From: Alligator mississippiensis
Lineage: Eukaryota > Chordata > Crocodylia > Alligatoridae
Length of the DNA stretch: 64,000 nucleotides
Direction: 5' to 3'
NCBI RefSeq assembly: GCF_030867095.1
Contig: NC_081828.1
Span: 220,379,978 to 220,443,977, forward strand
Within the stretch, counting starts at the first letter, position 1, and every line of letters begins with the position of its first letter. Under the pieces are notes generated by a model. That model searched no databases. It was given only the letters and a program-made list of their open reading frames with translations, and was not told where the DNA came from. Position numbers and translations under genes: made by a program. Positions 6,773 to 60,383 of the stretch are shown in pieces.

Positions 6773-9576
6773 CATAGATTCATAGATTGTAGAGTCGGAA
6801 AGAACCACAATGGATCATCATGTCCGACCCCCTGCCCCTGGCAGGAAAGAGGACTGAGGTCACATGACCCCAGCCAGGTGACTATCTAGCCTCCTCTTGA
6901 AGACCTCCAAGCTAGGTGACAGCACCACCTCTCTTGGAAGCCCATTCCAGATCCTGGCCACCCTTACTGTGAAAAATGTCTTCCTAATATCTAACCTAAA
7001 ACCACTCTCAACTAGTTTACACTCATTATTCCTAGTCACTCCCTGGGGCGCCTTAGTAAACAGCGCTTCCCCTGTTCCCTGTTGACCTCCCCTAATAAAT
7101 GTATAGGTGGCCACAAGATCTCCTCTCAGCCATCTCTTGTGAAGGCTGAAGAGATTCAGCTCTCTCAACCTCCCCCCCGTAGGGTCTATCATGAAGGCCA
7201 CTAATCATGCAAGTGGCCTCCTCTGGACCATCTCGAGATTCTCCGCGTCCCTCTTGAAGTGCGGTGCCCAAAACTGGACCCAGTACTCCAACTGCGGCCT
7301 GACCAGTGCCACATAGAGGGGGAGTATCACTTCTCTGGACCGGCTTCAGCTGCACCTTTGGATGCATGACAAGGTCTGGCTGGCCTTGCTGGCTGCGGTC
7401 TGGCGTTGGCGGCTCATGTTCATCTTGGAGTCGATAATGACTCCGAGATCCCTTTCCACCTCTGCTTTCAAGAAGGGAACTCCCCAGCCTGTATGTGTGC
7501 TGTGGATTCCTTCTCCCCAGGTGCAGCATCCTGCATTTGTCTACGTTGAACCCCATCCTATTCTCATCTGCCCACTTGTGTAGTCTGTCTAAATCTAGTT
7601 GCAGCCTCTCTCTCCCTTCAAGTGTGTCCATCTCACCCCAGATCTTGGTGTCATCAGCAAACTTGGACAGCGTGCTTTCCACCCCCTCGTCCAAGTCGCT
7701 GATGAAGATGTTAAACAGTCCGGGCCCGAGGACCAAGCCTTGGGGTACCCCGCTGCTCACATCTCGCCAGGTTGAGTACAATCCATCCACCACTACTCTC
7801 TGGGTGCGCCCCATCAGCCAATTTTTTACCCATCCAACTGTGCAGGCATCAATGCCGCGGTCACTTAATTTATTGATGAGGATGGGGTGAGAGACAGTGT
7901 CAAAGGCCTTCTTAAAGTCTAGAAAGACTACGTCCACAGCGACACCATCATCCAGGGATTTAGTTACCTGGTCATAAAAGACAATCAGGTTGGTCTGGCA
8001 GGACCTGCCTTTGATGAACCCATGCTGATTGCCCCTGAGCATGATCTCCCCCACAGGCCCCCCACAGATGTGCTCCTTGATGATCCTCTCCAAGAGCTTC
8101 CCGAGCACTGAGGTGAGGCTTACGGGCCTATAGTTACTTGGGTCCCCCTTCCTCACCTTCTTGAAAATTGGGACCACATTAGCCAGTTTCCAATGCACCG
8201 GCACCTGGCCAGATGACCACGAATGCTCATACAGCTGAGCCAAGGGCTCCACAATGACCCCTGCCAGCTCCCTCAGCACCCTTGGGTGGAGGGCATCTGG
8301 ACCTGCAGATTTAAAAATGTCTAGCCCTTCCAGAAGATCCCTAACTACATCTGCGCTGTCTGAGGGCTTGATAGAGGTATCCCCAAGATTGTCTCTACCT
8401 CTGGTAGGTGGGATATCCTGGTCCCTGTTCAGGAAAACAGAGGCAAAGAAACTGTTAAAAATATCAGCTTTCTCGTCTGGCTTGGCCACCAAATGACCGT
8501 TTGTGTCTTGCAGGGGCCCTACATTGCCTGGTGCCCTCTTCTTTCTCCCAATGTACTTGAAAAAGGGCTTTTTGTTGTCCTGAATCCTGGACACTAGCCT
8601 GAGCTCCATCTTTGCCGTCGCCTTCCTAGCAGCCCTCCTACACTTCCAGGCCGAGGAAGAGTACTCCTCCTTGGTGACAGCTCCTCCCTTCCACTGGTTG
8701 TACGCCCCCCTTTTAGTCCTCAGGCATTGCTGAATGCCCTTGCTGAGCCAAGGGTGGCTCTGAGCACTCTTACCCCCCTTGCTTCTCTCAAGGACTGTTA
8801 TCCTTTGGGCCAGAGGATTGCCCGCTTAAGGTATGACCATCCTTCGTGGACTCTCATCTCCTCTCCCTTCTGGGCCCTCAGTGCCTCCCCCACTAGTCTC
8901 CTGAGCTCGTTGAAGTTGGCCCTTCTGAAGTCAAGGCCTTTAGCCTTGGTGTGAGTCCTAGATGCCGTGTGTTGGATAATGAAATCCAGGAGGTGATGAT
9001 CACTGTTGTCCAGGTGGTCAAGGACCCGCAGTCCCCTCACCAGGTCATCCCCCATGGCCAGGACCAGGTCCAGCAAGGCGTTACCCCTAGTGGGGCTGTG
9101 CACTTCCTGGGTAAGGTGAAGGTCCTGTAATACAGCCAGGAACCTACGCGAGCGGTCAGACCTGGCTGTCTGCTCCTCCCAGCAAATGTCTGGGTAGTTT
9201 AGGTCACCCATGACAATAACATCCCTTGACCTAACCGCCTCCATAAGCTGACTGGAGAAGTCCTCGTCCAGCTCTTCCCCCTGGTTGGGTGGTCTGTAGT
9301 AGACCCACCGTAAGGTCCCTTTCTCCATGCCCTCCTTGTTTGACCCATAGTGTCTCTGTCCAATCCTCCTCTAACCCGAAGCTAATCCTTGATGATGTGA
9401 GGTGCTCTTGACATAGAGCGCAACCCCCCTCCCACCTTTCCTCTCTGTCCTGTCTCTTCTATCTAGGGTGTATCCCCAAATGCCCACCGCCCAGTCGTAG
9501 GTAGGGTCCCACCAGGTTTCTGTGAGCCCTACTAAGTCTGGGTTCTTGCTTGCAATCAGAATTAGGATGCCCAGGA
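6773..9576 (-). mobile_element. CR1 LINE, 2.8 kb, 5'-truncated
   Basis: Chicken-repeat-1 non-LTR retrotransposon on the minus strand. The 3' end (plus-strand left end) has the typical short tandem 'ttcatagattcatagatt' tail. ORF2 is represented by endonuclease sequence (GDLNYPDICWEE near 9200) and a reverse transcriptase reading frame of about 500 codons (8609-7092) with the intact palm motif FADDTK near 7660. The endonuclease and RT parts are in different frames, so the copy is broken. It is truncated at its 5' end inside the endonuclease. The long open RT frame suggests a moderately young insertion. Confidence 0.93.
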
Positions 9577-13791: not shown

Positions 13792-14255
13792 GTAAGGAGC
13801 GGTAGCTCTACCCTTTCCAGCAGCAGGAGGCACCATCCGCCTGTCTGCTGGCATATTTTGGTGGGGTCAGTGCTCCAACACAGTGCCTGTTCTTGTTTTC
13901 CCTGGAGAAGACAGACCTTGCATTTCCCCTCCCCCTACCCTTCATGTGTCAATCTGATAGAGTTCCTAAATCCCTTGAGCTTCTTTCCCAGGCAGTGATA
14001 TTCGTGCAGGCTCTGTCATGGTGCTGTGATCACCACCCTGCACTGGGATAGACTTATTGGGGCTCATCTCCAGCTTCGTGCCTGTGGAGGTCTGTTAGCC
14101 ATACTTGTGGGACTTGGATTCTTCTGCCTCCACCTTCTTCCACACACTGAAGCCTCCGGCTGCCTCTGTCCCAGGCCCGTACAGGAGACCAGCAGGGCTT
14201 TCCCCGTGCCAGCAGCACCAGGGCTCACCTGAGCATTCTCTTCTCCACCCCACAG

Positions 14256-14428
14256 GTGCTGGGACCCTGCAGAGAGCTGAGCAGCAGCCTCTTGAGGACG
14301 GGTCTGTTAACCTGGAGCTGCAGAGGACTTCCCTGGGGAGACTGGAGGAGAGGGGCTTCCTGACACCTGAGCCAGGCCAAGTGCAGAGGTGGCAGAGCAA
14401 ACCTGCAAAGCAGGGGGAAAGCTTGGAA
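14256..14428 (+). CDS. Gene A linker exon 2 before KRAB
   Basis: Acceptor 'ccaccccacag', donor 'gtgagc'; 173 bp, phase 1 to 0. Reads AGTLQRAEQQPLEDGSVNLE and continues as a glutamate/glutamine-rich linker. Strong similarity to gene B exon 42206-42366 supports it as a genuine exon. Confidence 0.75.
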
Positions 14429-14918
14429 GTGAGCAGGGCACTAGGTCCATTTGGGCGTGCAAGTACAGCTGGGGCAGAGCACAAGAAGAGCCAGGGGTGG
14501 TGTAAAGAATTTGGGATGCAGAGAGACCCAAAGAGCATCAAATCTGTTGTGATGGATGTTGCAAACACACCAAGCTGCATTAGCAGGAGCTCCCTCCCAA
14601 GTGCAGGTATCCAGGAGGGTGCTGGCATGGGCAGGCCTTGTCAGAGTGCGTGGAGCCGGGGCTCCCTGCCTACAAGTGCTGCCCAGGCTGTCTCAAAGTA
14701 CCAAGCAATTATGAGCTGGGCTAAAGTTGACACATCAACTCCCAGGTCCACAGCTGCATCCACATCACATGTCAGCTGAAGACTGGGGAATATTGCACCC
14801 TTACCTGTCATGACAAAGCCTGCAGTTGGTTGTAGTACAGAGCGATTGCAGACAGGGCTGTGGGAGCTGGAAGCAAGTGGAAGAGGAGACACTGATGGTG
14901 TAATGTTTGTGACTGCAG

Positions 14919-15045
14919 CTCCAGGAGGTGTTTCAGGACGTGGCTGTGTACTTCACACGGAAGGAGTGGGAGCTGCTGGAAGATGAGGACAAGGTGCTTT
15001 ACCGGGACCAGATGCTGAGGAATTTCCAAGCCCTCGTCTCCCTGG
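14919..15045 (+). CDS. Gene A KRAB-A box exon
   Basis: A 127-bp exon, the standard length for KRAB-A, with acceptor 'gtgactgcag' and donor 'gtaaag'. It encodes LQEVFQDVAVYFTRKEWELL followed by the rest of the box, ending ALVSLG. The DVAV and EW positions that contact TRIM28 are kept. The normally conserved MLE triplet is MLR here, and the following NY is NF. In studied KRAB domains changes in MLE weaken TRIM28 binding, so reduced repressor recruitment is possible (inference). Confidence 0.92.
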
Positions 15046-17924: not shown

Positions 17925-18041
17925 GACATCGAGGTCCCACACCTGACTTAATCTGCCGCATCCAGCGAGGACTGGTGGAGCTGTGGGTCTGTGATGATGA
18001 GGATGGTGGGGAAATCTCCAGGTCAGAGGAGCTGCTGCCAG
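17925..18041 (+). CDS. Gene A KRAB-B box exon
   Basis: A 117-bp exon between acceptor 'accaaacag' and donor 'gtgagt'. Spliced to KRAB-A it reads LGHRGPTPDLICRIQRGLVE and continues LWVCDDED, the PDLI.R...G...W form of KRAB-B. It then runs into an acidic stretch ending SRSEELLPG. Phase 1 on both sides. Gene B has the same exon at 45778-45894. Confidence 0.9.
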
Positions 18042-20499: not shown

Positions 20500-23226
20500 T
20501 AGGGCTGTGCAAAGCTGTGGATCATGATTTGGATACAGAGATGATTTGGATGATTCAGAGGCCGAGTCTATTACCCTGAATTGAATCGCTGGAAGCTTTA
20601 GGCTTTCCGAATCAATTTGGAAAAGATTCGGCAATTCGGCTACAGGGTATAATGGGGAATCAATGAAATATCTATAGTGTTATTATCTTTTGATTGATTT
20701 AGATGAAACATGCCGGGATGGTAGCTTCTGCTGAGAGCATGATGTGTGCAAAGTTTCAAGGAGATAAGTGCAGGGGTTTCTGGGAAACTGCACCTCAAAG
20801 TTATGAAAGCAAAACTCATGTCACGTGTGTGTTAAGCCACAGGGGGGTGAAAACTGCAGGGATGGTAGCTCTTTCAGGGGCAACAGCACCTGCCAAGTTT
20901 CGAGGAGATCGGTGCAAAGGTTTGGGGGAAACTGCACCTCAAGCTGCGGACAAGCAAAACTCGTGCCATGGGTGACACCGTGTGTGTTAAGGTGCAACAG
21001 GGTGACAGCTGCAGGGATGGTGGCCCCTGCTTGACCACGAAGCCTGCCAGCTGTGAAGGAGATCGGTGCAGGGGCTTCTGGGTTCTGGGGCCTGCACCCC
21101 TCGCTGCTGACAGGCAAAACTCGTGTCATGGGTGCTTGTGCAGCTGTCTCTCTCTCGGGGCACAGAGGGAGGCGGGGGAACTAGGTCAGGCCCGGCTGCT
21201 AAGCTACTGTGTTACCAATCAACCATGATTCACTCAGGGGCTGGCTCAATACACAGTAGCTAGGTACTAGATAACGAGTTAATGAGCAAGGATGAACACC
21301 TACAAAACCACAGACTAACGAGAGGAAAGAATCAGTACGGAGCCGGGATCTCCTTCTGCCCCAAGACAGAGACAGTCAGTTGCACAAGCACCCATGTCAC
21401 GAGTTTTGCCTGTGAGCAGCTCGGGGTGCCGGGCCCCAGAACCCCCCTGCACCCATCTCCTCCACAGCTGGCAGGCTTTGTGGCCACAGCAGGGCCTAGC
21501 AGCCAGGCCTGCAGTAGTTTCCCCCCCACCCCGCCCGTGCCTCAAGAGAGACAGTTGCACAAGCACCCATGACACGAGTTTTGCCTGTCAACAGCTAGAG
21601 GTGCAGGGCTGTCTCCTCGATAGCTGGCAGGCTTCGTAGCCTCAGCAGGGGCTAGCAGGCCTGCAGCTTTCACCCTCGTGTGCCTTAAAACACACAGCGT
21701 CACCCGTGTCATGAGTTTTGCTTGTCCGCAGTTTGAGGTAGTTTCCTCCAAACCCATGCACCTATCCCCTTGAAACATGGCAGGCTTTGTGGCCTCAGCA
21801 AGAGATACCATCCCTGCAGTCTTCACCCCCCTGTGGCTTAACACACACACGTGACATGAGTTTTGTTTTCAGGACTTTGAGGTTCAGTTTCCCAGAAACC
21901 CCCACCCCTATCTCCTTGAAATTTGGCACATCATGTGTGGCAGAAGGCTACCTCTGTTTCTCCCCCAAAACTCTGCTCTGTGACAATTTGGTTAGGATGG
22001 GCCCAGCAGAGGATACACACCTTACCCTATCCCTGTAGGTAACCTGAGCTGGATACATCCCTGAGGGAGGGGGGAAACCTGCTCCCTGTGCCTACATGAC
22101 TGGCATCACATACCTGGGTGAGGGGCTTGGGCACCCTGGTGGGCTAGAGACTGCCAGTCTGCCCAGCAACCAGTGATGCATTTCAAATTGGTTGGCTGAC
22201 AGCAAAGAGATGCTGGCCTCCATTGGACCGATAAATGAGGTCATAAGGGCTATGCAAGTTAAGGACTCCCCAGGAGGAGGGAGCAGCAGCCATGAGGAAA
22301 ACTGAGAGAGAGGGGGAGAGAGAGAGGAGCTGGGGCATCTGAAACTTGCTCTCTCTCTCAAAACTCATGATCAATGAACTGCCGGCCTCCAGAGGGAAAC
22401 TCCACCTGCCTCTGGATGATACGTGTGAGTAAGCTACCTGAGGTCTAACTGGATATATAGCTTGCAGTAACTCAGATGCAAGATCAAAGGCTACCCAGCC
22501 ACCCTGTTTGCTCTATGGGATTTCTCTGATACTACTCAACTCTGTACCCTAGTCCAACCCTACCCCTTGTTACCAATACAGTTCTCCTTTGTACCTACCA
22601 TAGGAGACTTATTGGGAGTGGGTCTCGATTATGCCTTGGGGTCTCCTTGGTTTGGCTGACTATGGGAGACCACTACCTGTGTTTCCGACTGAGGGTAGCA
22701 CCCTGTTTTTGAAGCGAGTCAAGTACCCTCGAGGGCTACTAGGCCTGTGTTTCCCAGGGGTGCAGAGCCAGAATCAAGCCCATCCCTGGGTGGTGGCAGC
22801 TCTACCCCCAGGCTAGCGGGTGTGCTCCAGGAATGGGGTCGGCCAAACATGAGGCGCCTCCGGAGGAAGGGGGTTGGCCAGACGTGAGGTGCCCCCAGGG
22901 AGGCACTCGGAGCCTGGAAGGTGGTCGGGAGCAGTGAGGTGAGTGGCTCAATGCAGGAGCACCTGCTACTGGCCCGCCACATCATGCTCTCAGCAGAGGC
23001 TACCATACCTACACGTTTCATCTGAATCAGTCAAAAGACGACAAAGTTATAGATATTTCATTGATTCTCCATTATACTCTATGGCCAAATCTCCGAATTG
23101 CCTCCAAATCCTCCAAAGTGATTTGGACGAATCGAATCGGAAAAACTATTTGGATCTCCAGATCAAATCTCTGGCATCCAAATCGGCCGAGTCTAAATTG
23201 AATAGTTCCCTATTCAAACAGGCCTA
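20500..23226. mobile_element. hAT-type DNA transposon built of subrepeats, with 8-bp target duplication
   Basis: Flanked by a perfect 8-bp duplication CTGCTTTC (20492-20499 and 23227-23234); the paralogous site in gene D has a single CTGCTTTC at 51011-51018. Ends begin TAGGGCTGTG on the left and TAGGCCTGTT on the inverted right end. Subterminal regions are long inverted repeats: 'gaatcaatgaaatatctata' near 20660 is present inverted near 23055. The middle consists of tandem units of about 145-160 bp, each holding 'gcaaaactc.tgtcacgggtg'-like text, and of their inverted forms. No transposase frame. A solo LTR occupies 21936-22981. Confidence 0.85.
21936..22981 (+). mobile_element. Solo LTR, family LTR-1, nested in the hAT element
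   Basis: Begins TGTGGCAGAA, ends GCCCGCCACA and is flanked by the 5-bp repeat TCATG (21931-21935, 22982-22986). The 6-bp inverted ends and target size are those of retroviral LTRs. The 3' 170 bp match the end of 29921-30876 in inverted orientation. No viral genes are attached. It is younger than the hAT that it interrupts. Confidence 0.85.
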
Positions 23227-23628
23227 CTGCTTTCCAAGCTGCCAGGCTGCATATTGCCAGTTGAATCATTATCCACCAATATGGCTCGTTAATAATCAGC
23301 CATCAGTATCAACTCAAAAAATCTTTACTGGTGCACACCAGCCACGTGTCCTTGTCTCAGCAGGGTCCGAGGTGATGGGGCTGACAGCTGGGACAGAAAC
23401 CCTCAGAGTCTGACTCTGAACTCCCCTGAGGGAACATTAGCCCGCCACAAGGACCTGCCTTTCCCTCACTCCCTGCACTTTGGGTTTTGAAGGAAGACCT
23501 TGATTTCTTGAGGGAACGCAAGGGCCAAAGTCCAGGCCTGCTCGGGCCCATCCATGCAGAAGAGATAGCAGTGTCTGCCCCTTGCCAGCAGCACAGGGAC
23601 TAATCTGGAGCTTCTCTTCCCCACTCAG

Positions 23629-26600
23629 GAGGTGCCTGGCTCCTCGGTGGAGCTGAGGAGGAGAATCATGCAGAAAGGCCTGCAAACCTAGAACCACCAT
23701 GGGCTTCCCCAGGGAATTTTGGTGACATGGACTCCCTGAGACCTGAGAAGGATCAACGGCCCAAGAGTCAGGGGAGACCCCAGAAGCAGATGAAGAATGT
23801 AGCGGTGAACCAGGTACCATCTCCAGTTGGGCGGGACAGTGGAGAAGGGGCAGAACCCAGAAAGAGCCCTGGCTGCAGGGAAGAATTTGTGGAGCTGAGA
23901 GACCTAAAGAGCCACTGGAAAGATGCACTGCATCCCAGCCAAGGCATTGGAAAGGGCCTCGGAGGGAAGCAGGAGCTCACTGCCCAGCACCGGGGCAAAG
24001 CCCACACTTCCCCCAAGGTCAGAAAAACCTTTAACTGCCCATTCCTCCTGGCTCTTCACAAGATAAGACACACTGGGCAGAAGTCCCACATATACACCAG
24101 GTGTGGGAAGAGCTTTATCTGCCTCTTGACCCTGGTTACTCACTGCTCATCCTATTCTGGAAAGCTACCCCACCGGTTCACCAAGTGGGTGAAGAGCTTT
24201 GTGTGACCCATAGACCTGGTCAAGCACCTACATTTGGAGAGGGGGAAGTGTCAGGCACAGCTGTGTCAAGTGTGACAAGACCTTCACCCATTTTTTCTCC
24301 CTGTCTCAGCACCGACGCACCCACCTGGGCAGGAAGACACACCGCTGCACTAAGTGCAAGAAGAACTTCATCTGCTGGCAAGACCTGTCCCAGCACCAGT
24401 GTGGGCAGCACTGCTGCACCAAGTGTGGGAAGAGATTCAAGCAGGTCTCCAACCTGGCCAGGCACTGGTGCATGCACACAAGGGAGAAGCCACATCAGTG
24501 CTCAGAGTGCGAGAAGAGCTTCACCCGATCTTCCAACCTGGCCCGGCACCATCAGATCCACACACAAAAGAAACCAAATCAGTGCTCGGTGTGTGGTAAG
24601 AACTTCACACACTCCTCCAGGCTGGCCCAGCACCAGCCTATCCATACAGGGGAGAAGCCACATCAGTGCTCGGAGTGTGGGAAGAGCTTCAGTCAGTCCT
24701 CCAGCCTGGCTGAGCACCAGCGTATCCACACAGGGGAGAAGCCACATCAGTGCTTGGGCTGTGGTAAGAGGTTCGCTCGCTCCTTCACCCTGGTTCAGCA
24801 CCAGCGTATCCACACAGGAGAGAAGCCACATCAGTGCTCGGAGTGTGGGAAGAGCTTCAGTCAGTCCTCCAGCCTGGCTGAGCACCAGCGTATCCACACA
24901 GGGGAGAAGCCACATCAGTGCTTGGGCTGTGGTAAGAGGTTCGCTCGCTCCTTCACCCTGGTTCAGCACCTGCGTATCCACACAGGAGAAAAGCCACATC
25001 AGTGCTTAGAGTGTGGTAAGAGCTTTGCTTACTCCTCCAACCTGGCCCAGCACCAGCTTATCCACACAGAGAAGAAACCACATCAATGCTCGGAGTGCGG
25101 TAAGAGCTTCACTCTGTCCTCCAGGCTGGCCCGGCACCAGCTCAGTCATATGGGGAAACCACATCAGTGCTCAGAGTGTGGGAAGAGCTTCACTCTCTCC
25201 TCCAGGCTGGTCCAGCACCAGCTTATCCATATGGGAGAGAAGCCACATCAGTGCTCGGAGTGTGGGAAGAGCTTCACTTACTCCTCCCGGCTGGCCCAGC
25301 ACCAGCTTATCCATACAGGGGAGAAGCCACATCAGTGCTCGGAGTGTGGGAAGAGCTTCACCCGGTCCTCCCACCTGGCCCGGCACCAGCTCATTCATAC
25401 GGGGGAGAAGCCACATCAGTGCTCAGAGTGTGGGAAGAGCTTCGCTGTCTCCTCTAGCCTGGCTAAGCACCAGCTTATCCACACAGGAGAGAAGCCACAT
25501 CAGTGCTCGGAGTGTGGGAAGAGCTTCACCCAGTCCTCCCACCTGGCCCGGCACCAGCTCATTCATATGGGTGAGAAGCCATATCAGTGCTCAGAGTGTT
25601 GGAAGACTTTCACTGACCCTTCTAGGCTGGCCCAGCACCAGCTTATCCACACAGGGGAGAAACCACATCAGTGCTCAGAGTGTGGGAAGAGCTTCACCCA
25701 GTCTTCCAACATGGCCCGGCACCAGCTCATCCATATGAGGGAGAAGCCACATCAGTCCTTGGAGTGTAGAAAGAACTTCACTGTCTCCTCCAGTCTAGCT
25801 AAGCACCAGGTCATTCGTATGGGGGAGAAGCCACATAAGTGCTCAGAGTGTGGGAAGAGCTTCGCTCACTCCTCCCAGCTGGCCCAGCATCAGCTTATTC
25901 ATACAGGGGAGAAGCCACATCAGTGCTCAGAGTGTGGGAAGAGATTCACTCAGTCTTCCAACATGGCCCGGCACCAGCTCATTCATATGAGGGAGAAGCC
26001 ACATCAGTGCTTGGAGTGTGGGAAGAGCTTCGCTGTCTCCTCCAGCCTAGCTAAGCACCAGCTCATTCATACTGGAGAGAAGCCACATAAGTGCTCAGAG
26101 TGTGGGAAGAGCTTCGCTCACTCCTCCCAGCTGGCCCAGCATCAGCTTATTCATACAGGGGAGAAGCCACATCAGTGCTCAAAGTGTGGGAAGAGATTCA
26201 CCCAATCTTCCAACATGGCCCGGCACCAGCTCATTCACATGAGGGTGAAGCTACATCAGTGCTTGGAGTGTGGGAAGAGCTTCACTCTCTCTTCCAGCCT
26301 GGCGAAGCACCAGCGTATCCACACAGGGGAGAAGCCACATCAGTGCTCCGTGTGTGGGAAGAGCTTCACTGTTTCCTCCAGCCTGGCTAAGCACCAGCTC
26401 ATTCATATGGGGGAGAAGCCACATCGGTGCTTGGAGTGTGGGAAGAGCTTCACTCTCTCCTCCAGCCTGGCTAAGCACCAACGTATCCACACAGGGGAGA
26501 GGCCACATCAATGCCCAGAATGTGGTAAGAGCTTCACCCAGTCCTCCAGCCTGGTTGAGCACCTGCGTATCCACACAAGAGAAAAGCCACATCAGTGCTC

Positions 26601-27015
26601 AGAGTGTGGGAAGAGCTTTGCTTTCTTCTCCAGCCTGGGTAAGCACCAACGTATCCACACAGGGGAGAAGCCATATCAGTGCTTGGAGTGTGGTAAGAGG
26701 TTCACTCAGTCCTCTACCCTGTCTCAGCACCACCATATCCACACAGGGGAGAAACCACATCAGTGCTCGGACTGTGGTAAGAGCTTTGCTCGCTCCTCCA
26801 GGCTGGCCCAGCATCGGCTTATCCATACAGGGGAGAAGCCACATCACTGCTCAGAGTGCAGGAAGAGCTTCACCCGATCCTCCCACCTGGCCCGGCACCA
26901 GCTCATTCATATGGGGAAGAAGCCACATCAGTGCTCAGAGTGTGGGAAGAGCTTCACTGCCTCCTCCAGCCTGGCTAAGCACCAGCTCATTCACACAGGA
27001 GAGAAGCCACATTGA
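23629..27015 (+). CDS. Gene A last exon: linker plus 30-finger C2H2 array
   Basis: Acceptor 'ccccactcag'; spliced to KRAB-B it reads PGGAWLLGGAEEE, then a linker (MDSLRPEKDQ at 23727). Two decayed finger-like segments follow, then an in-frame TGA (24204-24206) and a one-base insertion relative to gene B (about 24220-24240). The array frame then runs without a break to TGA at 27013-27015, encoding 30 consecutive 28-residue fingers with HTGEKPHQ-type linkers after one atypical finger pair. Finger 16 is degenerate (first Cys to Ser, last His to Arg) and finger 8 is one residue short. A putative intron at 23814-24309 (CAG|GTACCA ... CTCAG|CAC) is in phase 0 on both sides and would remove both lesions. 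Without it this would be a disrupted gene. The product would bind DNA through selected fingers. Confidence 0.85.
23814..24309 (+). other. Putative internal intron in gene A last exon
   Basis: Bounded by AACCAG|GTACCA and by a pyrimidine tract 'ttttttctccctgtctcag'. The exon part before it is 185 bp (phase 1 to 0) and the array resumes in phase 0 at 24310. Length is 496 bp, which is not a multiple of three, so splicing would restore the frame that the genomic sequence has lost. The donor is weak at positions +4 to +6; the acceptor is strong. Genes B and C have the same boundaries. Confidence 0.45.
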
Positions 27016-39966: not shown

Positions 39967-41041
39967 CTGGGGGCACGCACCGTCACGGCAGCGCCGGGGA
40001 CACGGACGGCGCAGACAGCCGCGCTGCAGCACCGCTCTGGGCAGGCCGCTCACCGGGGGCTGCTCCGCCTGACCGCCCCACCCCGGCCCGCGGCCCCAGC
40101 CGCCCCTGCACTCTCCCCGCAGCTGCGAGCCTCTCCCGCCCCGCGGCTCCGGGGGGCCACGGCCCGCAAGCGTTGGCGCCACGACCCCAAAACAGCCCCT
40201 CGTGACTTAAGGGCGCCGTGGCGGCGGCGCGGGGCTGCCCGCGCGGAGCCGGCGGGCCCTGGCGGCGGGCGGACAGGGCGGCGCGTCCCGCCGGCTCCAG
40301 CGCCCCCGGGCAGGGGGCAGCGACAGGCCCCGCGCGCTCCGAGGCGAGGATCTTCCCGGCCCGTGTGACACGTCCCCCCCCCGGGCACCGCGCTGCGCTG
40401 CGCTCCGCCGGCCGGGGCTCCGCTCGTGCCGCCCGGGGGCGGGGCGGGGCGGGACGGGGCCCGGGGCGGCCCTGCCTCCCCCGCTCCTGCGCGGCGCCCC
40501 CGCCCACCGGCCGCTCTGACAGGTGTGGGGGGCGGGGCCCGCCTCCGCTTCGCCCCGCCCCGCCCGTCTCCGAGCCGCAGCGAGGCAAGGACGTCACGTG
40601 GCGTCAGAAGGCGGGGGAGGAGCCGCGCGGCGCCGGGCGGCCTTGGACTCCGCTCCCACAAGCCCCCGCGACGGCGGCGGCGGCGGCGGCGGCGGGGCTA
40701 GGGGCAGGGGCGGGGCTTCCCAGGGCGGAGCGGGTTGCTCAATGTGTCGGGGGCGGGGCAGCCCTCGTCTGTCCACAGCGGGGCGGGGTCACGGTCCCGG
40801 TCCTGGTCCCGGTCCCGCTGTCCCACCAAGCGGTGACGTCCGCGCTGTCTCCTTCCCCGCAGCCCGGAGGCGGTGGCAGGCGCGCAGGCAGCGAGAGCTC
40901 GGGCCCGGCGGGGAGGCCTCTCCTGGGGGAGACGGAGGTGACGCCTCGTGTCGTCCCGACTGGCACCGGGACGCTTCCAAGGCGCGGCGGGCGCCACGTA
41001 TCACCCAGCCGCCGCAGGAGGAGCCGGTGCAGCGCGGGGAG

Positions 41042-41413
41042 ATGCGGGGGCCGGCGGTGATGCAGGCCATGCAGCCCCCGTCTGGGGCCGGTTCCCCCAC
41101 ACACCCCCCAGCCGGGGCCGAGCTCCCCGGCCCAGAGCCCTGGCGCCAGCGCTTCCGGGGCCTGCGCTACCGGGACGCCCCGGGGCCGCGGGAGGTGTGC
41201 CGGCGCCTGCAGGAGCTGTGCCGGGGCTGGCTGGAGCCCCAGCGCCGCAGCAAGGAGCAGGTGCTGGAGCTGGTGGTGCTGGAGCAGTTCCTGGCCATCC
41301 TGCCCCCGGGCATGCGGAGCTGGGAGTGGGGGCGCAGCGTGCAGACCTGCGCCCAGGCCGTGGCCCTGGCCGAGGGGTTTCAGCGGGGGCTGGAGGAGGA
41401 CGAGAAACGCCAG
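41042..41413 (+). CDS. Gene B SCAN-domain exon
   Basis: Starts at ATG 41042 ([10 protein letters not shown]; a second in-frame ATG lies at 41060) and ends at donor CAG|GTGAGA. The SCAN core is clear: [11 protein letters not shown], then [20 protein letters not shown] and [14 protein letters not shown], then AVALAEGF. This is the leucine-rich dimerisation module found N-terminal in tetrapod zinc-finger proteins. The frame is open upstream as well because of base composition, so the exact start is a choice. Confidence 0.88.
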
Positions 41414-41536: not shown

Positions 41537-41732
41537 GTCGCGGCGCGGGGGAAGGTGCAGGACGTGGGCGCAGAGGAGATGCCGTCCCCGGGGGCGCGGC
41601 GGGAGCCTGGCGATGCCTGGCGGGAGCAGCCCCAGGCCCGCGGTGCCGACAGGCCGCTGGAGAAGGCAGGACACAGGGAGACGCCGGGGCCTCCGGACCC
41701 CGAGGAGGAGCCCCCGCCCTGCCAGGAGTCAG
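41537..41732 (+). CDS. Gene B linker exon 2
   Basis: Acceptor 'tcgtccccag', donor 'gtgagg', 196 bp. Reads VAARGKVQDVGAEEMPSP, then QPQARGADRPLEKAGHRET and an acidic proline-rich end. Such exons follow SCAN in many SCAN zinc-finger genes. An inverted relative lies at 39758-39966. Confidence 0.85.
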
Positions 41733-42205
41733 GTGAGGCGCAGGGCGCAGGCCCGGGCGTGCGAGGTGTGGGCGCCGGCGAGGCCGTCCTGCACGCGGGG
41801 AGCGGTCGGACGTCTGCCCGTGCACGGGACAGGGCTGCGGTATTTGTTGCCCGGGGGGGGGCAGAGCTGTGGTCCCCGTGGGGGTGTCTCCCAGGCTGGG
41901 GCCCTCGGTCTTTCTCCGTGACTGTGCAGCGCCCAGCAGAGAGGGGCTTCGTCTTGCTTGGGCCTTGTCGTGCTGCCGCGATAACAGTCAGTGACCTTAT
42001 TCACGTCCCAGCAGCCAGTGTTCGCTCGTCCCTTTCTCGTGCCTCCATGAGCCCTCCGTGCCCCACAAGGGGCTGGTGCAGGTGAGATGCCCCAGTGGTC
42101 TCCGTCTGGGGCAGGTACAGTTAACCCGGGCCAGTATAGGAGACGAGCAGGGCTTTCCCTGTGCCAGCAGCACCAGAGCTCATTTCTACCTTCTCCGCCT
42201 CGCAG

Positions 42206-42366
42206 GTGCTGGGACCCTGAGCAGAGCTGAGCAGAAGCGTCCTGGAGAAGAGCCTGTAACCCTGGAGCTGCACAGGACTTCCCCAGGGAGCCTGGAGGAG
42301 AGGGGCTCCCCGACACGTGAGCTGGGCCAACTGCAGAAGGGGCAGGGCAGGCCTCCAAGGCAAGAG
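42206..42366 (+). CDS. Gene B linker exon 3
   Basis: Acceptor 'ctccgcctcgcag', donor 'gtgagc', 161 bp; reads AGTLSRAEQKRPGEEPVTLE and ends PPRQE. Homologous to gene A exon 14256-14428, 12 bp shorter and in the same phases. Confidence 0.82.
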
Positions 42367-42837
42367 GTGAGCAGGGCACCGGGTTGGGTTGGGGGCGGGA
42401 GTGCAGGTGGGGCAGAGCACAGGAGGAGTTGGGGGTGGTGTAAAGAAGATGGGGAGCAGGGAGCTCTGAAGAGCGACAAGCCTGTGGTGACAAACGTGGA
42501 AACGCAGCAAGCTGCATTAGCAGGAGCCCCCTCCCAAGTGCAGAGAACAAGGGGGGCTGGCACGGGAAGGCCTGGTCAGAGCTCGAGGCGCTGGGGCTCC
42601 CTGACCCCAAAAGTGGTGCCCCGGCTGCCTCAAGGGGCCGAGCAAAGAGAAGGTGGTGAGCTGGGCTAAGTCCTGTGTCCACAGCTGCATCCACATCACA
42701 GGCCAGCTGACTAATGGCACCCCTGCCTGGCACGGCTAGACGTGCAGTTAGCTGTAGGACAGTCATGGCAGACAGGGCCGAGGGGCTGGAAGCAGCTGGC
42801 GCAGGAGACACTGATGGAGCAACGCTTGTGCCCGCAG

Positions 42838-42964
42838 CTCCAGGAGGTGTTTGAGGACGTGGCTGTGTACTTCACGCAGAAGGAGTGGGAGCTGCTGGAA
42901 GATGAAGACAAGGTGCTTTACCGGGACCAGGTGCTGAAGAATTTCGACGCCCTCATTTCGCTGG
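42838..42964 (+). CDS. Gene B KRAB-A box exon
   Basis: A 127-bp exon encoding LQEVFEDVAVYFTQKEWELL and ending ALISLG. The box is near-identical to gene A, but the position usually MLE is VLK. Loss of MLE in both genes suggests a shared change in this family rather than random decay. Confidence 0.92.
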
Positions 42965-43034
42965 GTAAAGCGCTAGTTCTTGCTTCTCCCTGGAGTACTT
43001 TAAAGAAGCCTTGCTGAGAGCGCAGGCACAAACC

Positions 43035-45777: not shown

Positions 45778-45894
45778 GATATCAGGGTCCCACACCGGAC
45801 TTAGTCTGCCGCATCCAGCAAGGACAGGTGGAGCTGTGGGTCTGTGAAGATGAGGACAGTGGGGAAATCTCAAGGTCCGAGGAGCTGCTGCCAG
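45778..45894 (+). CDS. Gene B KRAB-B box exon
   Basis: 117 bp between 'ccaaacag' and 'gtgagt'; spliced it reads LGYQGPTPDLVCRIQQGQVE, then LWVCEDEDSG and SRSEELLPG. Phase 1 both sides. The W and PDL positions of KRAB-B are kept. Confidence 0.9.
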
Positions 45895-47079
45895 GTGAGT
45901 TGTGGCTGTCCCCTCCACCCGACTGCGCTCCATGCCCAGAGTGCCCACCCGCCCAGGGGACGTGGAAAGTGAGACCTGTCCTGTGCTGCCATTGCAGGGT
46001 GCTGACCTCAAGCACAGTACATTACGCTGCAACGTGTCCAGGCAGGTCTTGTTCCCGCTCCCTGAAATTCAAGGATGCGGAGAGAAGCAGCTGTTCACTT
46101 CTCCCTGTAATGACAGATGTCAGGGGACACTCAGGCTTGCTGTCTTGATTTATTGGCCGAGACCTGGTTTCCCTGGGGTACATTATCTTATATTTCCATC
46201 ATCACTCAGAAATGTTCATTCCCCAGCCCAAGGTAGCCATAGCCGTGTAACACTCTCTCCCAGGGCACGATGGGAGTCCCCTGTGGAATTCAGCATGGTA
46301 TGCAGAGGCTCTACGAGGCCGTGACTGTTGGAAAAGAAAAGTTGAGGCTCTCTTCCTGGACCCCAGGAAGTGTTTCTTCATGATCTCAGACTGCGTTAAA
46401 GGGCTCCATGGCTTGGGTGGGATTCAGAAACTCACATTGTGGGAGGAAGTGAATACCCCAGGCTTTTCCCAAGAATTGCCCCCTTCCTGTTTAGACTCTG
46501 CAGCCCTGAGTGTCACAAAGCATCAGACCCAGCACAAAGTCTGGGTTCAGGCTCATGCTGATGCCTTAGACCTGGTGCAGACTCCTGTGACATGGAGCCC
46601 ACCTGGGGCCCGTCAGCAGAGGAAATCTCCATGGGCTCATCTCCTGCACCAGACCGTGCCCTGGAAGCAGGCAGGCAGCGCAGCCCTGCTCCTTTCAGAA
46701 GAGAGAGCCATAGCTCTAAGCCCTTCCCTCCTCCTTAGCCCGTTACACCATGAAGCCATTCAGGTACTGTCCTAACGCACACGTCCCACACGTGCTTCTC
46801 CTAGCAGGGTCTGAGGTGTTGGGGCTGACAGCTGGGCCAGAAACTCCTGAGAGTCCTGCTCTGAACCCCACCGAGCAGTGAACGTTATCCCAGCACAGGG
46901 ACCTGCCCCTCCCGCAGCCCCAGCACTTGGGGTTTTGGCAGGGAGACCTGGTTTTCTTCAGGGGACACAAGTGCCAAGGGGCAGGCCTGCTGTGCGGCCC
47001 GTGCCAGCTGAACGAATAGCAGTGTTTGCCCTCTGCCAACAGGGTAGGCACTAATCTGGTGTTTCTCTTCCCCGAGCAG

Positions 47080-48578
47080 GAGGCGCCTGGCTGCTGAGCA
47101 GAGCTGAGGAGCAACCTCCTGCGGATGGGGCTGCAGACCTGGAGCCAGCAGGGACTTCCCCAGGGAGTTTGGCTGAGATGGACCCCCTGACACCCGAGGA
47201 GGATCAGTGGCACAAGAGTCAGGGGAGGTCCCAAAAGCAGAAGGGGAATGTAGCGGTGAACCAGGTACCATCTCGAGTTGGGCGTGAGAGTGGGGAAGGG
47301 ACAACACCCAGAAGGAGCCCTGGGCGCACGGCAGAGTTTGTGGAGCTGAGAGACCTAAAGAGCTGCTGGAAAGATGCGCTGCATCCCAGCCAAGGCAGTG
47401 GGGAGGGGCTCAGAGGGAAGCAGGAGCTCACTGCCAAGCACCGGGGCAAAACCCACCCATTCCCTGAGGTCAGAAAAACCTTTAATTGCCCATCCCTCCT
47501 GGCTCTTCACAAGATAAGGCACAATGGGGAGAAACCCCACGTAAGCACCAAGTGTGGGAAGAGCTTCACCTTTCTCTTGACCCTGGTTACTCACCGCCAG
47601 ACCCATTCTGGAGAGCTACCACACTGCTTCACCAAATTGGGGAATAGCTTGGTGCACCCCACAGACCTGGCCAAGCATCTGTAGTGCAGAGGGGGAAGTG
47701 TCAGGCACGGCTGTGTCAAGTGTGGCAAGACCTTCACCCCTTTTTTCTCCCTGTCTCAGCACCAACGCATCCACCTGGGCAGAAGGACACACCGCTGCAC
47801 TGAGTGCAGGAAGAACTTCATCTGCTGGCAAGACCTGTCCCAGCACCAGTGTGGGCAGCACTGCTGCACCAAGTGTGGGAAGAGATTCAAGCAGCTCTCC
47901 AACCTGGCTAGGCACTGGTGCATGCACATGAGGGAGAAGCCACTTGAGTGCTCAGAGTGTGGGAAAAGCTTCACCCGATCCTATCACCTGGCCCGGCACC
48001 AGCTCACCCACACAGGGGAGAAGCCACATCAGTGCTTGGAGTGTGGGAAGAGCTTCACTTATTCCTCCGACCTGACCATACACCGGCTCATCCATGCAGG
48101 GGAGAAGCCACATTGGTGCTCGGAGTGTGGGAAAAGCTTCACTCGCTCCTACAACCTGGCCCAGCACCTGCTCATCCACACAGGGGAGAAACCACATCAG
48201 TGCTCAGAGTGTGGGAAGAGCTTCACTCATTCCTCTGACCTGACCAAACACCTTCTCATCCACACAGGGGAGAAGCCACATTGGTGCTCAGAGTGTGGGA
48301 AGAGCTTCACTCGATCCAATGACCTGACCAAACACCAGCGTATCCACACAGCGGAGAAGTCGCATCATTGCTCGGAGTGCGGGAAAAGCTTCAGCCAATC
48401 CTCCAACCTGACCAGACACCAGCTCATCCACACAGGGGAGAAACGATATCTGTGCTCAGAGTGCGGGAAAAGCTTCAATCGATCCTGTCACCTGTCTCGG
48501 CACCAACGTATCCACAATGGGAAAAGTAACATCAGTGCTTGGAGTGTGGGAAGAGCTTCACTCATTCGTCCAACCTGA
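47080..48578 (+). CDS. Gene B last exon: linker plus seven intact fingers
   Basis: Acceptor 'cccgagcag'; spliced it reads PGGAWLLSRAEEQPPADGAA, then MDPLTPEEDQ. Decayed finger segments follow (KCGKSFTFLLTLVTHRQTH), then an in-frame TAG at 47682-47684. The array continues in the same frame with two atypical fingers and seven canonical ones before a one-base deletion near 48513 shifts the frame, ending at 48578. A putative intron at 47265-47759 (495 bp, phase 0) would remove the TAG. The last in-frame residues after finger seven are NGKSNISAWSVG and are not finger-like. Confidence 0.82.
47265..47759 (+). other. Putative internal intron in gene B last exon
   Basis: Same boundaries as in gene A: CAG|GTACCA and 'ttttttctccctgtctcag'. 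Length 495 bp, a multiple of three, so both the spliced and the unspliced form keep the frame, but only the spliced form avoids the TAG. Confidence 0.45.
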
Positions 48579-48940
48579 CCCAACACTGGCTCATCCGCGC
48601 AGGGGAGAAGCCACATCAGTGCTTGGTGTTTGGGAAAAGCTTCACCGAAACCTCCAACCTGGTCCAGCACCTACTCATCCACACAGGGGAGAAGCCACAT
48701 CGGTGGTCAGAGTGCGGGAGGAGCTTCATTCAGTCCTACAACCTGATGAAACACCAGCGTATCCATATAGCAGAGAAGACACATCAGTGCTCAGAGTGTG
48801 GGAAAAGCTTCCGCTGGTCCTCCAACCTGGTCCAACACCAGCTCATCCACAGGGGGGAGAAGCCACATCAGTGCTTGGTGCGTGGGAAGTGCTTTCTTCA
48901 CTCCTCCAAACTGGGCCAGCACCAGTGTATTCATATCTGA
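48531..48940 (+). pseudogene. Five out-of-frame fingers after gene B frameshift
   Basis: In a second frame the array continues with five more fingers (48539-48940). Several are missing ligands: finger 9 has CLVFGKSF for C..C, finger 10 begins W instead of C, finger 12 has CLVRGKCF. This accumulation fits loss of constraint after the one-base deletion. Confidence 0.82.
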
Positions 48941-50345: not shown

Positions 50346-51687
50346 GTTTAAGAAGCTCTGATGTACAGGGCCCTTGAGCTCTGGGGCTCTTCCTTGCTTC
50401 TCCTGCTCAGGTTGACCTGGGACACAGGAAGTGTTTCATCACGCTCTCAGGCTGCATTAAATGGCTCCATGGCGTGGGAGGGATTCGGAAGCTTTCTTGT
50501 TGTGGGAGGAAGGAAACCCCCCCATGTTTTGCACCAGAACTACCCCCTTCCTGTTTCCTCTCCAGGACCCTGAGTGTCGCAAAGCCTGAGACTCAGCACA
50601 GAGTCCAGGTTCAGGATCATGTCAAGGCCTTACACCCAGTTCAGACTCCTGTGACATACAGGTCATCAGGGACTTGTCAGCAAAGGAAAGCTCCACGGGC
50701 TCATTCCCTGCACCAGACCTTGCCTTGGAAGCAGGCAGGAAGCACAGCCCTGCTCCTTTCAGAGGGAGCCACAGCCACGGCCCTCGCCCCATACACAAGT
50801 CCAGGGTACATGCCCCCCATACCTCCCCTGGGGTGTGCACAGCCACAGGAGCTGTACCCCCTGGACGAGCCATGGCTCCATCCTGTACTCCACCCCACTC
50901 TACCCCGGTTTGGCAGCACCTCCCCAGCCCCAACCCCACACCCTCCCTCACCATGGGGTCCTTGATCTGCCCCCACAACCCTTCCCCCCAGCAGACTTAC
51001 CAGCTGGACGCTGCTTTCCAAGCTTCCAGGCTGCATACTGGCAGTTGGATAGCTATCAGCCCATACGGCTCGTTGTTAATTGACCATCGGTATCAGCTCA
51101 AAAGATCGTTATCAGTCCATGCCTACCCACATGTCCTTGTCTCAGCAGGGCCTGAGGTGATGGGGCTGACAGCTGGGACAGAAACACTGAGAGTCTCTGA
51201 ACTCCCCTGAGTAGGGAACTTTAGCCCAGCACAAGGACCTGCCTTTGCCTCACTCCCTGCACTTTGGGTTTTAAAAGGAGAACCTTGATTTCTTGAGGGA
51301 ACGCAAGGGCCAAAGCCCAGGCCTGCTCAGGCCCATCCATGCAGAAGGAATAGCAGTGCTTGCCCCTTGCCTGCAGCACAGGGACTAATCTGGAGTTTCT
51401 CTTCCCCATGTAGGAGGTGCCTGGCGGATCAGGAGCCACCATGGATTTCCCCAGGGAGTTTGGGTGAGATGGACTCCCTGAGACCTGAGAAGAAGCAATG
51501 GTCCAAGAGTCAGGGGAGACCCCAGAAGCAGATGAATGTAGCAGTGAACCAGGTACCATCTCCTCTTGGGCATGAGAGTGAGCAGGGGCAGGACCCAGAA
51601 AGAGCCCTGGGTGCGGGGAAGGATATCTGGCAGCCAAGGTGGAGGGGAGGGTGTCAGAGGGAACAGGAGCTCACCGCCAAGCACAGG
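50346..51687 (+). pseudogene. Gene D: truncated zinc-finger paralogue
   Basis: Intron plus start of the last exon of a fourth copy of the unit, closest to gene A. The exon starts after 'cttccccatgtag' at 51414 and contains MDSLRPEKKQ and KSQGRPQKQM, also the conserved AACCAG|GTACCA at 51546-51557. Compared with gene A, a deletion just after the exon start shifts the frame. A CR1 cuts it at about 51688, before any finger. KRAB exons are absent. Clearly a pseudogene. Confidence 0.85.
50775..51118. mobile_element. Partial fold-back hAT arm in gene D intron
   Basis: Shares 'cagacttaccagctggacgc' and following text with the gene A intron and, more distantly, with the right arm of the hAT at 15.46-16.54 kb. 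It contains the uninterrupted CTGCTTTC site (51011-51018) where gene A received its second hAT. Absent from genes B and C. Confidence 0.6.
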
Positions 51688-52735
51688 GTTGCAGGAAGGA
51701 GGGACCTGAGCAGATCATCAAGTCCAACCCCCTGCCACGGGCAGGAAAGGATGTTCCCCACGTATTTTGACCAAGAGAGACTCCAGTCATCCCTTCTGGG
51801 TGCCAATGTCAATTTGAAGAGATGTGTAGCTGTCCTTGACATGAGGGCTACACCCCCACACCTTTTATCTGAACAAACGTGCCTGTACAGGGTATAGCCA
51901 TCCATACCTGTGGCCCAGTCATAGGTGGAGTCCCACCAGGTCTCCGTTATCCCTATGATGCCATAGCTGTTCTTGTTTAGCAGGAGGACCAGTTCCTCCT
52001 GTTTATTCCCCAAGCTCCTGGCATTGGTGTAGAGGCAGACAAGTGTCCCACTGGGGGCCCTTTTCATTCCGGGGCTAGGGCAGGGGTGGGTTCCCTTAGG
52101 TGCCTTGGCCCACTGGATTTACAAGGGTTACCCAGCAGGCCAGCAGTGGCAGTAATCCCCCCCCCCCCAGCGGGCTCAGTTTAAAGCCCAGGCGAGCAGG
52201 TCAGCCATTCTGGCTGAGAAGAGCCTCCATCCAAGCGGAGTGAGGTGGAGGCCGTCTCTCCGCAGCAGACCACTGCCTCTCTCGCCAAAGAGCGGACTGT
52301 GATCATGGAAGACGAAGCCTTCATGATGATGCCAGCGCCGCAGTCTATGGTTGACTACCTCAACCCATCTCTCCCTCCTCTGCCCATGACCTACAACTGG
52401 GAGGAGTGAGGAAAAGATCACCTGCGCACCCAACCCCCTAAGCCCCGCTCCCAGAGCCCTGTAGTCTCTCATGACACGGCTGGGATTGCTCCAAGCCGGG
52501 TCATTTGTGCCCACATGGATAAGGAGCCACAGGGTAGTGGTCGGAGGGCTGGATAATCCTTGGTGTCCTCTCTGCTATGTCCTTGATGTGGGCCCCTGGG
52601 AAGTAGCAGACCTCCCAGGCTAGGGGGTCTCAGCGGCAGATAGCCCTCTTAGGAGGGAGTCTCCCATGATGACCACTGTGCATGTCGTCTTAGGGAGAGT
52701 AGGGGTGGGTGATCCTTCCTCGCCTGCAGGAGCTG
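51688..52735 (-). mobile_element. CR1 LINE retaining ORF1 esterase region, internally deleted
   Basis: Minus strand. From 5' to 3': an ORF1-like part with GDSLLRG (near 52655) and GTNDPA (near 52510), the serine-esterase motifs known from CR1 ORF1; then the start of ORF2 (LYTNARSLGNKQEELVLLL, GIIGITETWWD); then directly the CR1 3' end at 51690-51755. Most of ORF2 is missing. It truncates gene D. Confidence 0.85.
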
Positions 52736-58505: not shown

Positions 58506-60383
58506 CTAATGTGGCTTCACCCCTGTGTGGATGAGCTGGTGTTTGGTCAGATTAGAGGATCGGGTGAAGCTTTTCCAACAGTCTGAGCACTGATGTGGCT
58601 TCTCTTGCAAGTGGATGAGCTGGTGCTGGGCCAGGGAGGAGAAACAAGCAAAGCTCTTCCCACAGTGCGAGCACTGATTTGTCTTCTCCCCTATATGGAT
58701 GAGCTGGTGCCGGGCCAGGTTAGAGGACTGGGTGAAGCTCTTCCCACACTCTGAGCACTGATGTGGCTTCTCCCCTGTGTGGATACGCTGGTGCTGGGCC
58801 AGGTGGGAGGATCGGGTGAAGCTCTTCCCACACTCTGAGCACTGATGTCGCTTCTCCCCGGTGTGAGTGAGAAGGTGTTGAGCCAGGTAGGAGTATCGGG
58901 TGAAGGTCTTCCCACACTCGGAGCACTGATGTCGCTTCTCCCCGGTGTGGATGAGCTGGTGCCGGGCCAGGTTAGAGGATCGGTTGAAGCTTTTCCCGCA
59001 CTCCGAGCACTGATGTGGCTTCTCCCCGGTGTGGATGAGCTGGTGTTTGGTCAGGTCAGAGGATCGAGGGAAGCTCTTCCCACACTCCGAGCACCAATGT
59101 CGCTTCTCCCGTCTGTGGATTTGCTGATGCTGGGCCAGGCTCAAGGACTGAGTGAAACTCTTCCCACACTCCGAGCACTGATGTGGCTTCCCCCCTGTGT
59201 GGATGAGCTGGTGCCGGGCCAGGTGAGAGGGTCGGGAGAAGCTCTTCCCACACTCTGAGCACCGATGTGGCTTGTCCCCTGTGTGGATACGCTGGTGCCG
59301 GGCCAGGTGAGAGGGTCGGGAGAAGCTCTTCCCACACTCCGAGCACTGGTGTGGTTTCTCCCCTGTGTGGATGAGCCAATGTTTGGTCAGGTCAGAGGAT
59401 CGGGGGAAGCACTTTCCACACTCCAAGCACTGATGTGGCTTCTCCCCCATGTGGATGCGCTTGTGTTGGGCCAGGTGAGAGGATCGGGTGAAGCTCTTCC
59501 CACACTCTGAGCACTGATGTGGCTGGTCCCTCGTGTGCATGCACCAATGCCTAGCCAGGTTGGAGAGCTGCTTGAATCTCTTCCCACACTTGGTGCAGCA
59601 GTGCTGCCCACACTGGTGCTGGGACAGGTCTTGCCAGCAGATGAAGTTCTTCTTGCACTCAGTGCAGCGGTGTGTCTTCCTGCCCAGGTGGGTGCGTCGG
59701 TGCTGAGACAGGGGAGAAAAAAGGGGTGAATGTCTTGTCACACTTGACACAGCTCTGACTGATGCTTCCCCCCCTGCACTTGTAGGTGCCTGACCAGGTC
59801 TGTGGGGCGCACAAACCTCTTCCCCAGTTTGGTGAAGCGGTGTGGTAGCTCTCCAGAATGGGTCTGGCGGTGAGCAACCAGGGTCAAGAGGCAGGTGAAG
59901 CTCTTCCCACACTTGGTGTATACGTGGGGCATCCCCCCATTGTAACTGATCTTGTGAAGAGCCAGGAGGGATGGGCAGTTAAAGGTTTTTCCTGACCTTT
60001 TCTGGGGTGGGTTTTGCCCCAGTGCTTGGCAGTGAGCTCCTGCTTCCCTCTGAGCCCCTCCCCACTGCCTTGGCTGGGATGCAGCGCATCTTTCCAGCGG
60101 CTCTTTAGGTCTCTCAGCTCCACAAACTCTGCCGTGCGCCCAGGGCTCCTTCTGGGTGTTGTCCCTTCCCCACTCTCACGCCCAACTCAAGATGGTACCT
60201 GGTTCACCGCTTCATTCCCCTTCTGCTTTTGGGGCCTCCCCTGACTCTTGTGCCACTGATCCTCCTCGGGTGTCAGGGGGTCCATCTCAGCCAAACTCCC
60301 TGGGGAAGTCCCTGCTGGCTCCAGGTCTGCAGCCCCATCCGCAGGAGGTTGCTCCTCAGCTCTGCTCAGCAGCCAGGCGCCTC
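58506..60383 (-). CDS. Gene C last exon: C2H2 zinc-finger array, minus strand
   Basis: Acceptor 'cccgagcag' on the minus strand, exon start 60383. The first 185 bp are almost identical to gene B (GGAWLLSRAEEQPPADGAA). Then come TGA at 60189-60187, a one-base loss near 59990 and at least two one-base gains nearer the array. From 59702 the array frame runs open to TAG at 58508-58506: two atypical fingers (CTECKKNF, CTKCGKRF) and 12 canonical fingers. All lesions upstream of the array fall within the putative intron 60198-59703. KRAB exons are not in the window: the upstream intron is cut by a CR1 at about 61390, so they are lost or lie beyond 64000. Expression and function are uncertain. Confidence 0.82.
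59703..60198 (-). other. Putative internal intron in gene C last exon
   Basis: CAG|GTACCA at 60199/60198 and tract 'ttttttctcccctgtctcag' ending at 59703. Length 496 bp. It spans the stop and all the length changes, including an extra C within the pyrimidine tract itself, which would shift a coding frame but not harm an acceptor. Confidence 0.45.

Follow-up and report, generated by a model that had tools for sequence, protein, structure and literature searches.

The window analysed here is a 64-kb stretch (64,000 nucleotides) of the Alligator mississippiensis genome, which contains three KRAB zinc-finger genes, named genes A, B and C. In each of them, a segment of 495–496 bp lies between a linker exon part and the zinc-finger array, and its reading frame is damaged. 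A sequence-only reading of this DNA had proposed that the segment was once coding and is now spliced out, so that damage within it is tolerated; our analysis supports both proposals. As judged from the copies compared, the segment is very probably a spliceosomal intron that originated as coding sequence (intronization), in a family with at least 40 members. In the public models of genes B and C, precisely this stretch is skipped, the flanks keep frame across the 40 copies, and relatives outside the group formed by these copies still encode it.

The borders given by the sequence-only reading are correct in all three genes (Table 1). The segment starts as CAG/GTACCA and ends as CTGTCTCAG/CAC (the slash marks the splice border), and a 185-bp exon part is located directly upstream. 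The damage described earlier was also found, namely one stop and one shift in gene A, one stop in gene B, and one stop and at least three length changes in gene C. For gene B the description could be refined: the single stop is flanked by two one-base length changes that cancel out, a loss at position 419 and a gain at position 440 of the segment, the latter shared with genes A and C. Because the loss and the gain compensate, gene B is in frame by net length only. The phase-0 join obtained in every gene by removal of the segment is real; however, its weight is small, as it is a consequence of the homologous borders and amounts to one 1-in-3 coincidence. Similarly, all three genes show damage, but they are not independent. 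Genes B and C are inverted copies, with a near-identical tract at 46456–47458 and 60005–61007 (98% identity over 1003 bp); therefore, the three genes make at most about two independent witnesses. The divergence between B and C is 0.7% in the upstream intron, 1.1% in the exon and 9.3% in the segment; the shift occurs ∼175 nt into the segment, which points to a conversion or duplication breakpoint inside the new intron. By these comparisons, the evidence above chance comes from the 40 copies, not from genes A, B and C alone.

The public gene models treat the segment as an intron in genes B and C. All 758 residues of P0017 ('zinc finger protein 829-like isoform X2 [Alligator mississippiensis]') match gene B, in seven coding exons; the last intron of this model, which is of phase 0 and GT-AG in nature, is exactly the segment. 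P0028 ('zinc finger protein 708') is identical to gene C and skips the segment exactly, with the join GNEAVNQ/HRRTHLG. Protein search with the gene B linker (stop read as Q) identified 26 proteins, all from Alligator, and a second search identified 17 proteins, P0028 included. Among 33 linker-bearing Alligator models, 9 make this join (two of them in Alligator sinensis) and 22 continue past the donor, typically as NQVPS..; of the remaining models, P0024 uses the same donor with a different finger and P0021 has a shortened linker. Exact skipping of the segment was found in the models of five of the 40 loci, including gene B (P0017), gene C (P0028), L010 (P0019), L012 (P0018) and L017 (P0026). 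P0027 shares its N-terminal part with P0024, and its linker donor is joined to an out-of-frame acceptor; this join is a hint of transcript evidence, not proof. Isoform numbers in gene models usually rest on alignments.

To the three copies of the window (C5), the genome search added 37 others; the 40 copies lie on C1, C2, C3, C5, C11 and C15. As 40 of 342 candidates were scored, this number is a lower bound. One locus, L033, could not be aligned at the acceptor, and counts that involve alignment at the acceptor use 39 loci. The donor GT is present in 40/40 copies and the acceptor AG in 37/39. The 185-bp-type exon part lacks in-frame stops in 39/40 copies, and its lengths (179, 182, 185 and 191) are all 2 modulo three (40/40); the segment lengths are spread over the three classes (11/14/14). 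Within 183 nt before the donor, an in-frame stop occurs at 1/40 loci, compared to 21/40 after the donor, at 10 distinct offsets. The frame of the array contains stops before the acceptor in 24/39 copies and after it in 3/39. Distinct indels that are not a multiple of three account for 41/48 in the segment, 0/5 in the exon and 3/7 in the first 240 nt of the array. No copy (0/39) possesses an unbroken exon-segment-array frame, the array is open for at least 600 nt from the acceptor in 35/39, and splicing would give a clean gene in 34/40 copies, judged by GT, AG, an open exon and an array open for 300 nt or more. Fisher values for the 40 copies overstate the contrast, since the copies are related; the counts of distinct events are less affected. 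Comparison of the copies establishes that reading-frame loss is confined to the segment, while the flanks stay in frame.

The splice signals were scored as log-odds on base frequencies. The sequence-only reading had named the weak donor as its main doubt, and the donor is indeed weak, with a score of −0.40; yet it is near the annotated KRAB-A donor of gene B, TGG/GTAAAG (−0.33). This KRAB-A donor, at 42965 in gene B and 15046 in gene A, is identical in both genes and very weak by consensus; the other donors of gene B score 6.2 to 8.5. Among the copies, the donor is CAGGTACCA in 31 and AAGGTACCA in 4, with CAGGTACCG, CAGGTAACA, CAGGTATCA and TAGGTATCA occurring once each; that of L026 is CAGGTAAGA (CAG/GTAAGA), with a score of 7.01. 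The acceptor scores 6.5 in genes A and B and 5.9 in gene C, with a median of 6.5 across 37 copies. The pyrimidine tract is kept together with GT and AG across the copies, and 23/39 have a yTnAy match whose A lies at −24. When the GT columns (3, in the exon) and AG columns (11, near the acceptor) kept in at least 90% of the rows were paired, this pair scored best; the next acceptor scored 0.69, compared to 6.5. At the equivalent place in 500 downstream fingers, AG was found in 214 and the median acceptor score was −0.27. In the finger split by the acceptor, the first His, which is the codon after the acceptor, is present in 16/39 copies and the second His in 26/39, whereas the AG before the first His is present in 37/39; the two Cys of the next finger are kept in 37/39 and 36/39. 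Aligned in this way, the copies indicate that constraint is shifted from the split finger to the splice site, whose signals are retained. A splice that joins the KRAB-B exon directly to the array and bypasses the 185-bp part was rejected: the KRAB-B donor of gene B is of phase 1, the acceptor of the array is of phase 0, and the 185-bp part itself is preserved in frame.

The former coding content of the segment is likewise established by comparison, as an alignment of P0003 with the linker and segment of gene B shows 60% identity. We built a midpoint-rooted tree from frame-corrected rows of 39 of the 40 loci (L033 out) and 20 of the 22 models continuing past the donor (all but P0007 and P0011). 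All 39 loci fall into one group with a support of 96/95, and 19 of the 20 models reading into the segment fall outside it; the exception is P0020. Outside the group, P0010, P0022, P0029, P0030, P0034 and P0035 come next, followed by P0003 and the rest. From this tree we infer a single main origin of the spliced state, most likely acquired along the branch leading to the group of now at least 40 copies. The ancestral KRAB zinc-finger gene would have had an unbroken last exon, which ran from the linker behind KRAB (..NVAVNQVPS..) across about three leading fingers, part of them already degenerate, into the array. Latent splice sites may already have been present; those of the translated relatives were deduced from protein sequence. 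The Gln-Val of the linker, written CAG/GTACC, would serve as the donor; the finger ..TFTHFFSLSQ/H.. would give a branch-like TTCAC, a T-rich tract from Phe-Phe-Ser, and the acceptor. Splicing at this pair would shed the old leading fingers and join the linker to the array in phase 0. The segment would then have gathered stops and frameshifts, with the frame of exon and array, as well as the splice signals, being maintained.

Several observations weigh against this reading. The models P0017, P0028 and the others are predictions, and predictors can invent introns to bypass stops. P0020, which is 363 residues in length, has a KRAB match, no finger match and reads into the segment; it nests in the group yet is annotated as unspliced and truncated, which argues against uniform splicing, or at least uniform annotation. 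Apparently, it represents a group member read without splicing and cut short. The donor score is 0.02 or lower in 38/40 copies, and its invariant columns (AG/GTA) are not unique, as 88/496 segment columns are also invariant. Six of the 40 copies (L011, L015, L023, L032, L033 and L041) do not pass the full spliced-gene test. Nor does the segment clearly evolve faster: the mean column conservation is 0.878, compared to 0.909 for the exon and 0.865 for the array, and the A-B divergence of 14.3% in the segment is below that of the exon (20.5%) and the upstream intron (22.3%). Along genes A, B and C, changes are few and mosaic after the B-C conversion, and the segment diverges no faster than the exon. 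Codon-position diversity sets apart neither exon nor segment, and the linker exon itself lacks a third-position excess. Of the contrasts between the segment and its flanks, examined here on paralogous copies, the concentration of frame loss in the segment was found, but rates and codon positions are not distinguishing. A tree of KRAB plus linker (P0011, P0021, P0022, P0027 and P0032 left out) does not group the spliced models, giving 6 changes, at least 3 of them forced. To our judgement, this tree appears to rank below the 39-locus tree, because P0012 and P0018 seem to carry intron-derived sequence in place of KRAB-B and the exons may have separate histories.

Explanations without splicing fit these data less well. 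If the segment were left unspliced, each gene might give two products, a KRAB-linker protein stopping in the segment and a finger-only protein starting inside the array; P0020 is annotated as just such a truncated KRAB protein, and the long arrays remain open by themselves. An internal start is disfavoured, however, by the lack of a widely shared start codon: the commonest first in-frame ATG, at +162 from the acceptor, is found in at least 9/39 copies and the rest are scattered. Two products also predict no joint keeping of GT, AG and tract, which was observed, and five loci have spliced models; we regard this explanation as improbable. Still less credible is that the copies are decaying pseudogenes and the annotated intron a prediction artefact jumping over the damage. 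The predicted nature of the models, the gene A model that was not found and the copies failing the spliced-gene test would agree with it, but frame-breaking indels are concentrated in the segment and most arrays are open over a long distance. We infer that the segment is spliced out in cells.

Whether splicing or damage came first is a separate and less certain matter. In total, 66 distinct disruptive events were counted in the segment of the 39 copies. The one-base gain at +440 is common to 30/39 copies, as expected if a premature stop or this gain came before splicing and splicing acted as a rescue, an order proposed by Catania and Lynch (2008, PMC2586383) and compatible with an intronized segment. 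However, to account for the other nine copies, five or more further events are required (greedy cover: six). Moreover, L014, L039 and L042/L043 form a 100/100 clade in the DNA tree and have no disruptive event in common: L014 carries the +440 gain only, L039 two stops, and L042/L043 another gain plus two stops. The ancestor of this clade was therefore probably unbroken, with dispensability before damage. As a caveat, the gain of L014 and the stop of L039 at 255 recur in other clades, indicating that conversion or recurrence is at work and complicating the order of events. On balance of these alignments, splicing is likely to have preceded the damage, the segment probably becoming dispensable before its decay, and the damage-first order is unlikely.

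It is possible, though doubtful, that the coding sequence of C2H2 fingers is pre-adapted for intronization, with the linker donor paired with finger acceptors more than once and with optional splicing first and decay after. The F-T ... L-x-Q-H codons can provide a branch-like site together with a pyrimidine stretch and CAG/CAC, and the linker donor is paired with other finger acceptors in P0031 of Alligator sinensis (NW/HRHIHLGRK) and in P0024. If this is true, leading fingers would be shed from zinc-finger genes by splicing.

Intronization of exonic sequence has been described by Irimia (2008, via citing papers) and by Catania and Lynch (2008). In the model of PMC2586383, short introns are biased to multiples of three, damage in the form of a stop comes first, and splice sites can pre-exist. 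The alligator segment is similar in that coding sequence with latent splice sites would have become an intron containing premature stops; different from the model, it is ∼495 bp in length and without bias to multiples of three, and one sub-clade has no common lesion. Three intronization cases (CYP21A2, RPGR and HELZ2) were reported among 342 human intron gains (PMC12124190), and intronization was reported in five human retrogenes, many from cryptic sites (PMC3565874). As in these cases, the intron of one lineage is the coding exon of its relatives, and the retrogenes often activated latent sites; the human cases are single genes, whereas in the alligator at least 40 dispersed copies, which decayed in parallel, appear to carry one event. 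Exitrons (PMC4484396) share the position within a coding exon, the weak splice sites and the effect on C2H2 fingers, five human KRAB-ZNF genes being affected. However, exitrons contain no premature stops; with no unbroken frame among the alligator copies, retention of the segment cannot yield a full protein, and the unbroken ancestor may have been an exitron. An intronized exon is also present in a snake venom metalloproteinase gene (PMC4963849), again in a reptile multigene family, but there a whole exon was lost within the fusion of two flanking introns, whereas the putative alligator intron arose inside one exon. Among the listed open-licence papers on intronization, exitrons, intron gain or cryptic splicing in connection with zinc-finger, KRAB or crocodilian genes, retrogenes or gene families, no title or opening abstract describes this family. 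Intronization is a known process, rarely documented in vertebrates, of which this family is very probably a further case.

One event carried by at least 40 copies provides parallel replicates within one genome. The copies can be used to ask whether splicing or damage comes first, for how long a weak donor is tolerated (that of L026 being CAG/GTAAGA) and in what way zinc ligands lose constraint to splice signals. The truncated P0020 suggests that in gene families of this type, functional members may be annotated as broken.

Gene A has no annotated counterpart in our searches: a public model was not found, but in the search with its array, other vertebrate proteins dominated the best 120 of 6514 matches, so absence is not established. 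Its KRAB-A, KRAB-B, linker and array parts have GT/AG borders and form one open joined frame. SCAN, KRAB and C2H2 are above the Pfam cut-offs in P0017 and P0028; among these three, only KRAB and the array were found for gene A within the window. An Rfam scan of 23000–25000 gave no match at gathering scores.

Table 1. Coordinates of the parts of genes A, B and C in the window
Feature	Position	Strand	Remarks
Gene A KRAB-A exon	14916..15045	+	start approximate; ends TGG/GTAAAG; Pfam PF01352 E 1.1e-17 on 14916-15047
Gene A KRAB-B-type exon, 117 bp	17925..18041	+	homologue of gene B 45778-45894; checked for borders and open join; alone, no Pfam match
Gene A 185-bp exon part, upstream of intron	23629..23813	+	acceptor score 6.87; open in frame
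Gene A putative intronized former coding segment, 496 bp	23814..24309	+	TGA at +390; one-base gain ∼+440; splicing predicted from homology and frame
Gene A zinc-finger array	24310..27015	+	open frame, in phase 0 with acceptor; 901 aa up to the stop
Gene B coding exon 1, SCAN domain	40742..41413	+	exact match to P0017; SCAN E 2.6e-32
Gene B coding exon 2	41537..41732	+	exact match to P0017
Gene B coding exon 3	42206..42366	+	exact match to P0017
Gene B KRAB-A exon	42838..42964	+	P0017 match; Pfam
Gene B KRAB-B-type exon	45778..45894	+	P0017 match
Gene B 185-bp exon part	47080..47264	+	P0017 match
Gene B putative intronized segment, 495 bp	47265..47759	+	intron in P0017; phase 0, GT-AG
Gene B zinc-finger exon as annotated, stop included	47760..48578	+	P0017 match
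Gene C 185-bp exon part	60199..60383	-	identical to P0028 residues 511-572
Gene C putative intronized segment, 496 bp	59703..60198	-	skipped in P0028 (GNEAVNQ/HRRTHLG)
Gene C zinc-finger exon, stop included	58506..59702	-	P0028 match

Other features of the window were also noted. The exon part occurs a fourth time, at 51400–51690, again with a CAG/GTACCATCTCC donor; the match of this copy to gene A stops ∼180 bp into the segment. At 48521–48940 the array of gene B is frameshifted, so that P0017 ends in an out-of-frame tail, and several further fingers lie in another frame. The exon before KRAB-A (14191–14536 and 42146–42370) is homologous to the linker exon after KRAB-B, a sequence similarity pointing to an old internal exon duplication. 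Long reverse-transcriptase-like reading frames are present at 7092–8825 on the minus strand and in several other stretches; from their motifs, we take them to be probable remnants of long interspersed nuclear elements (LINE).
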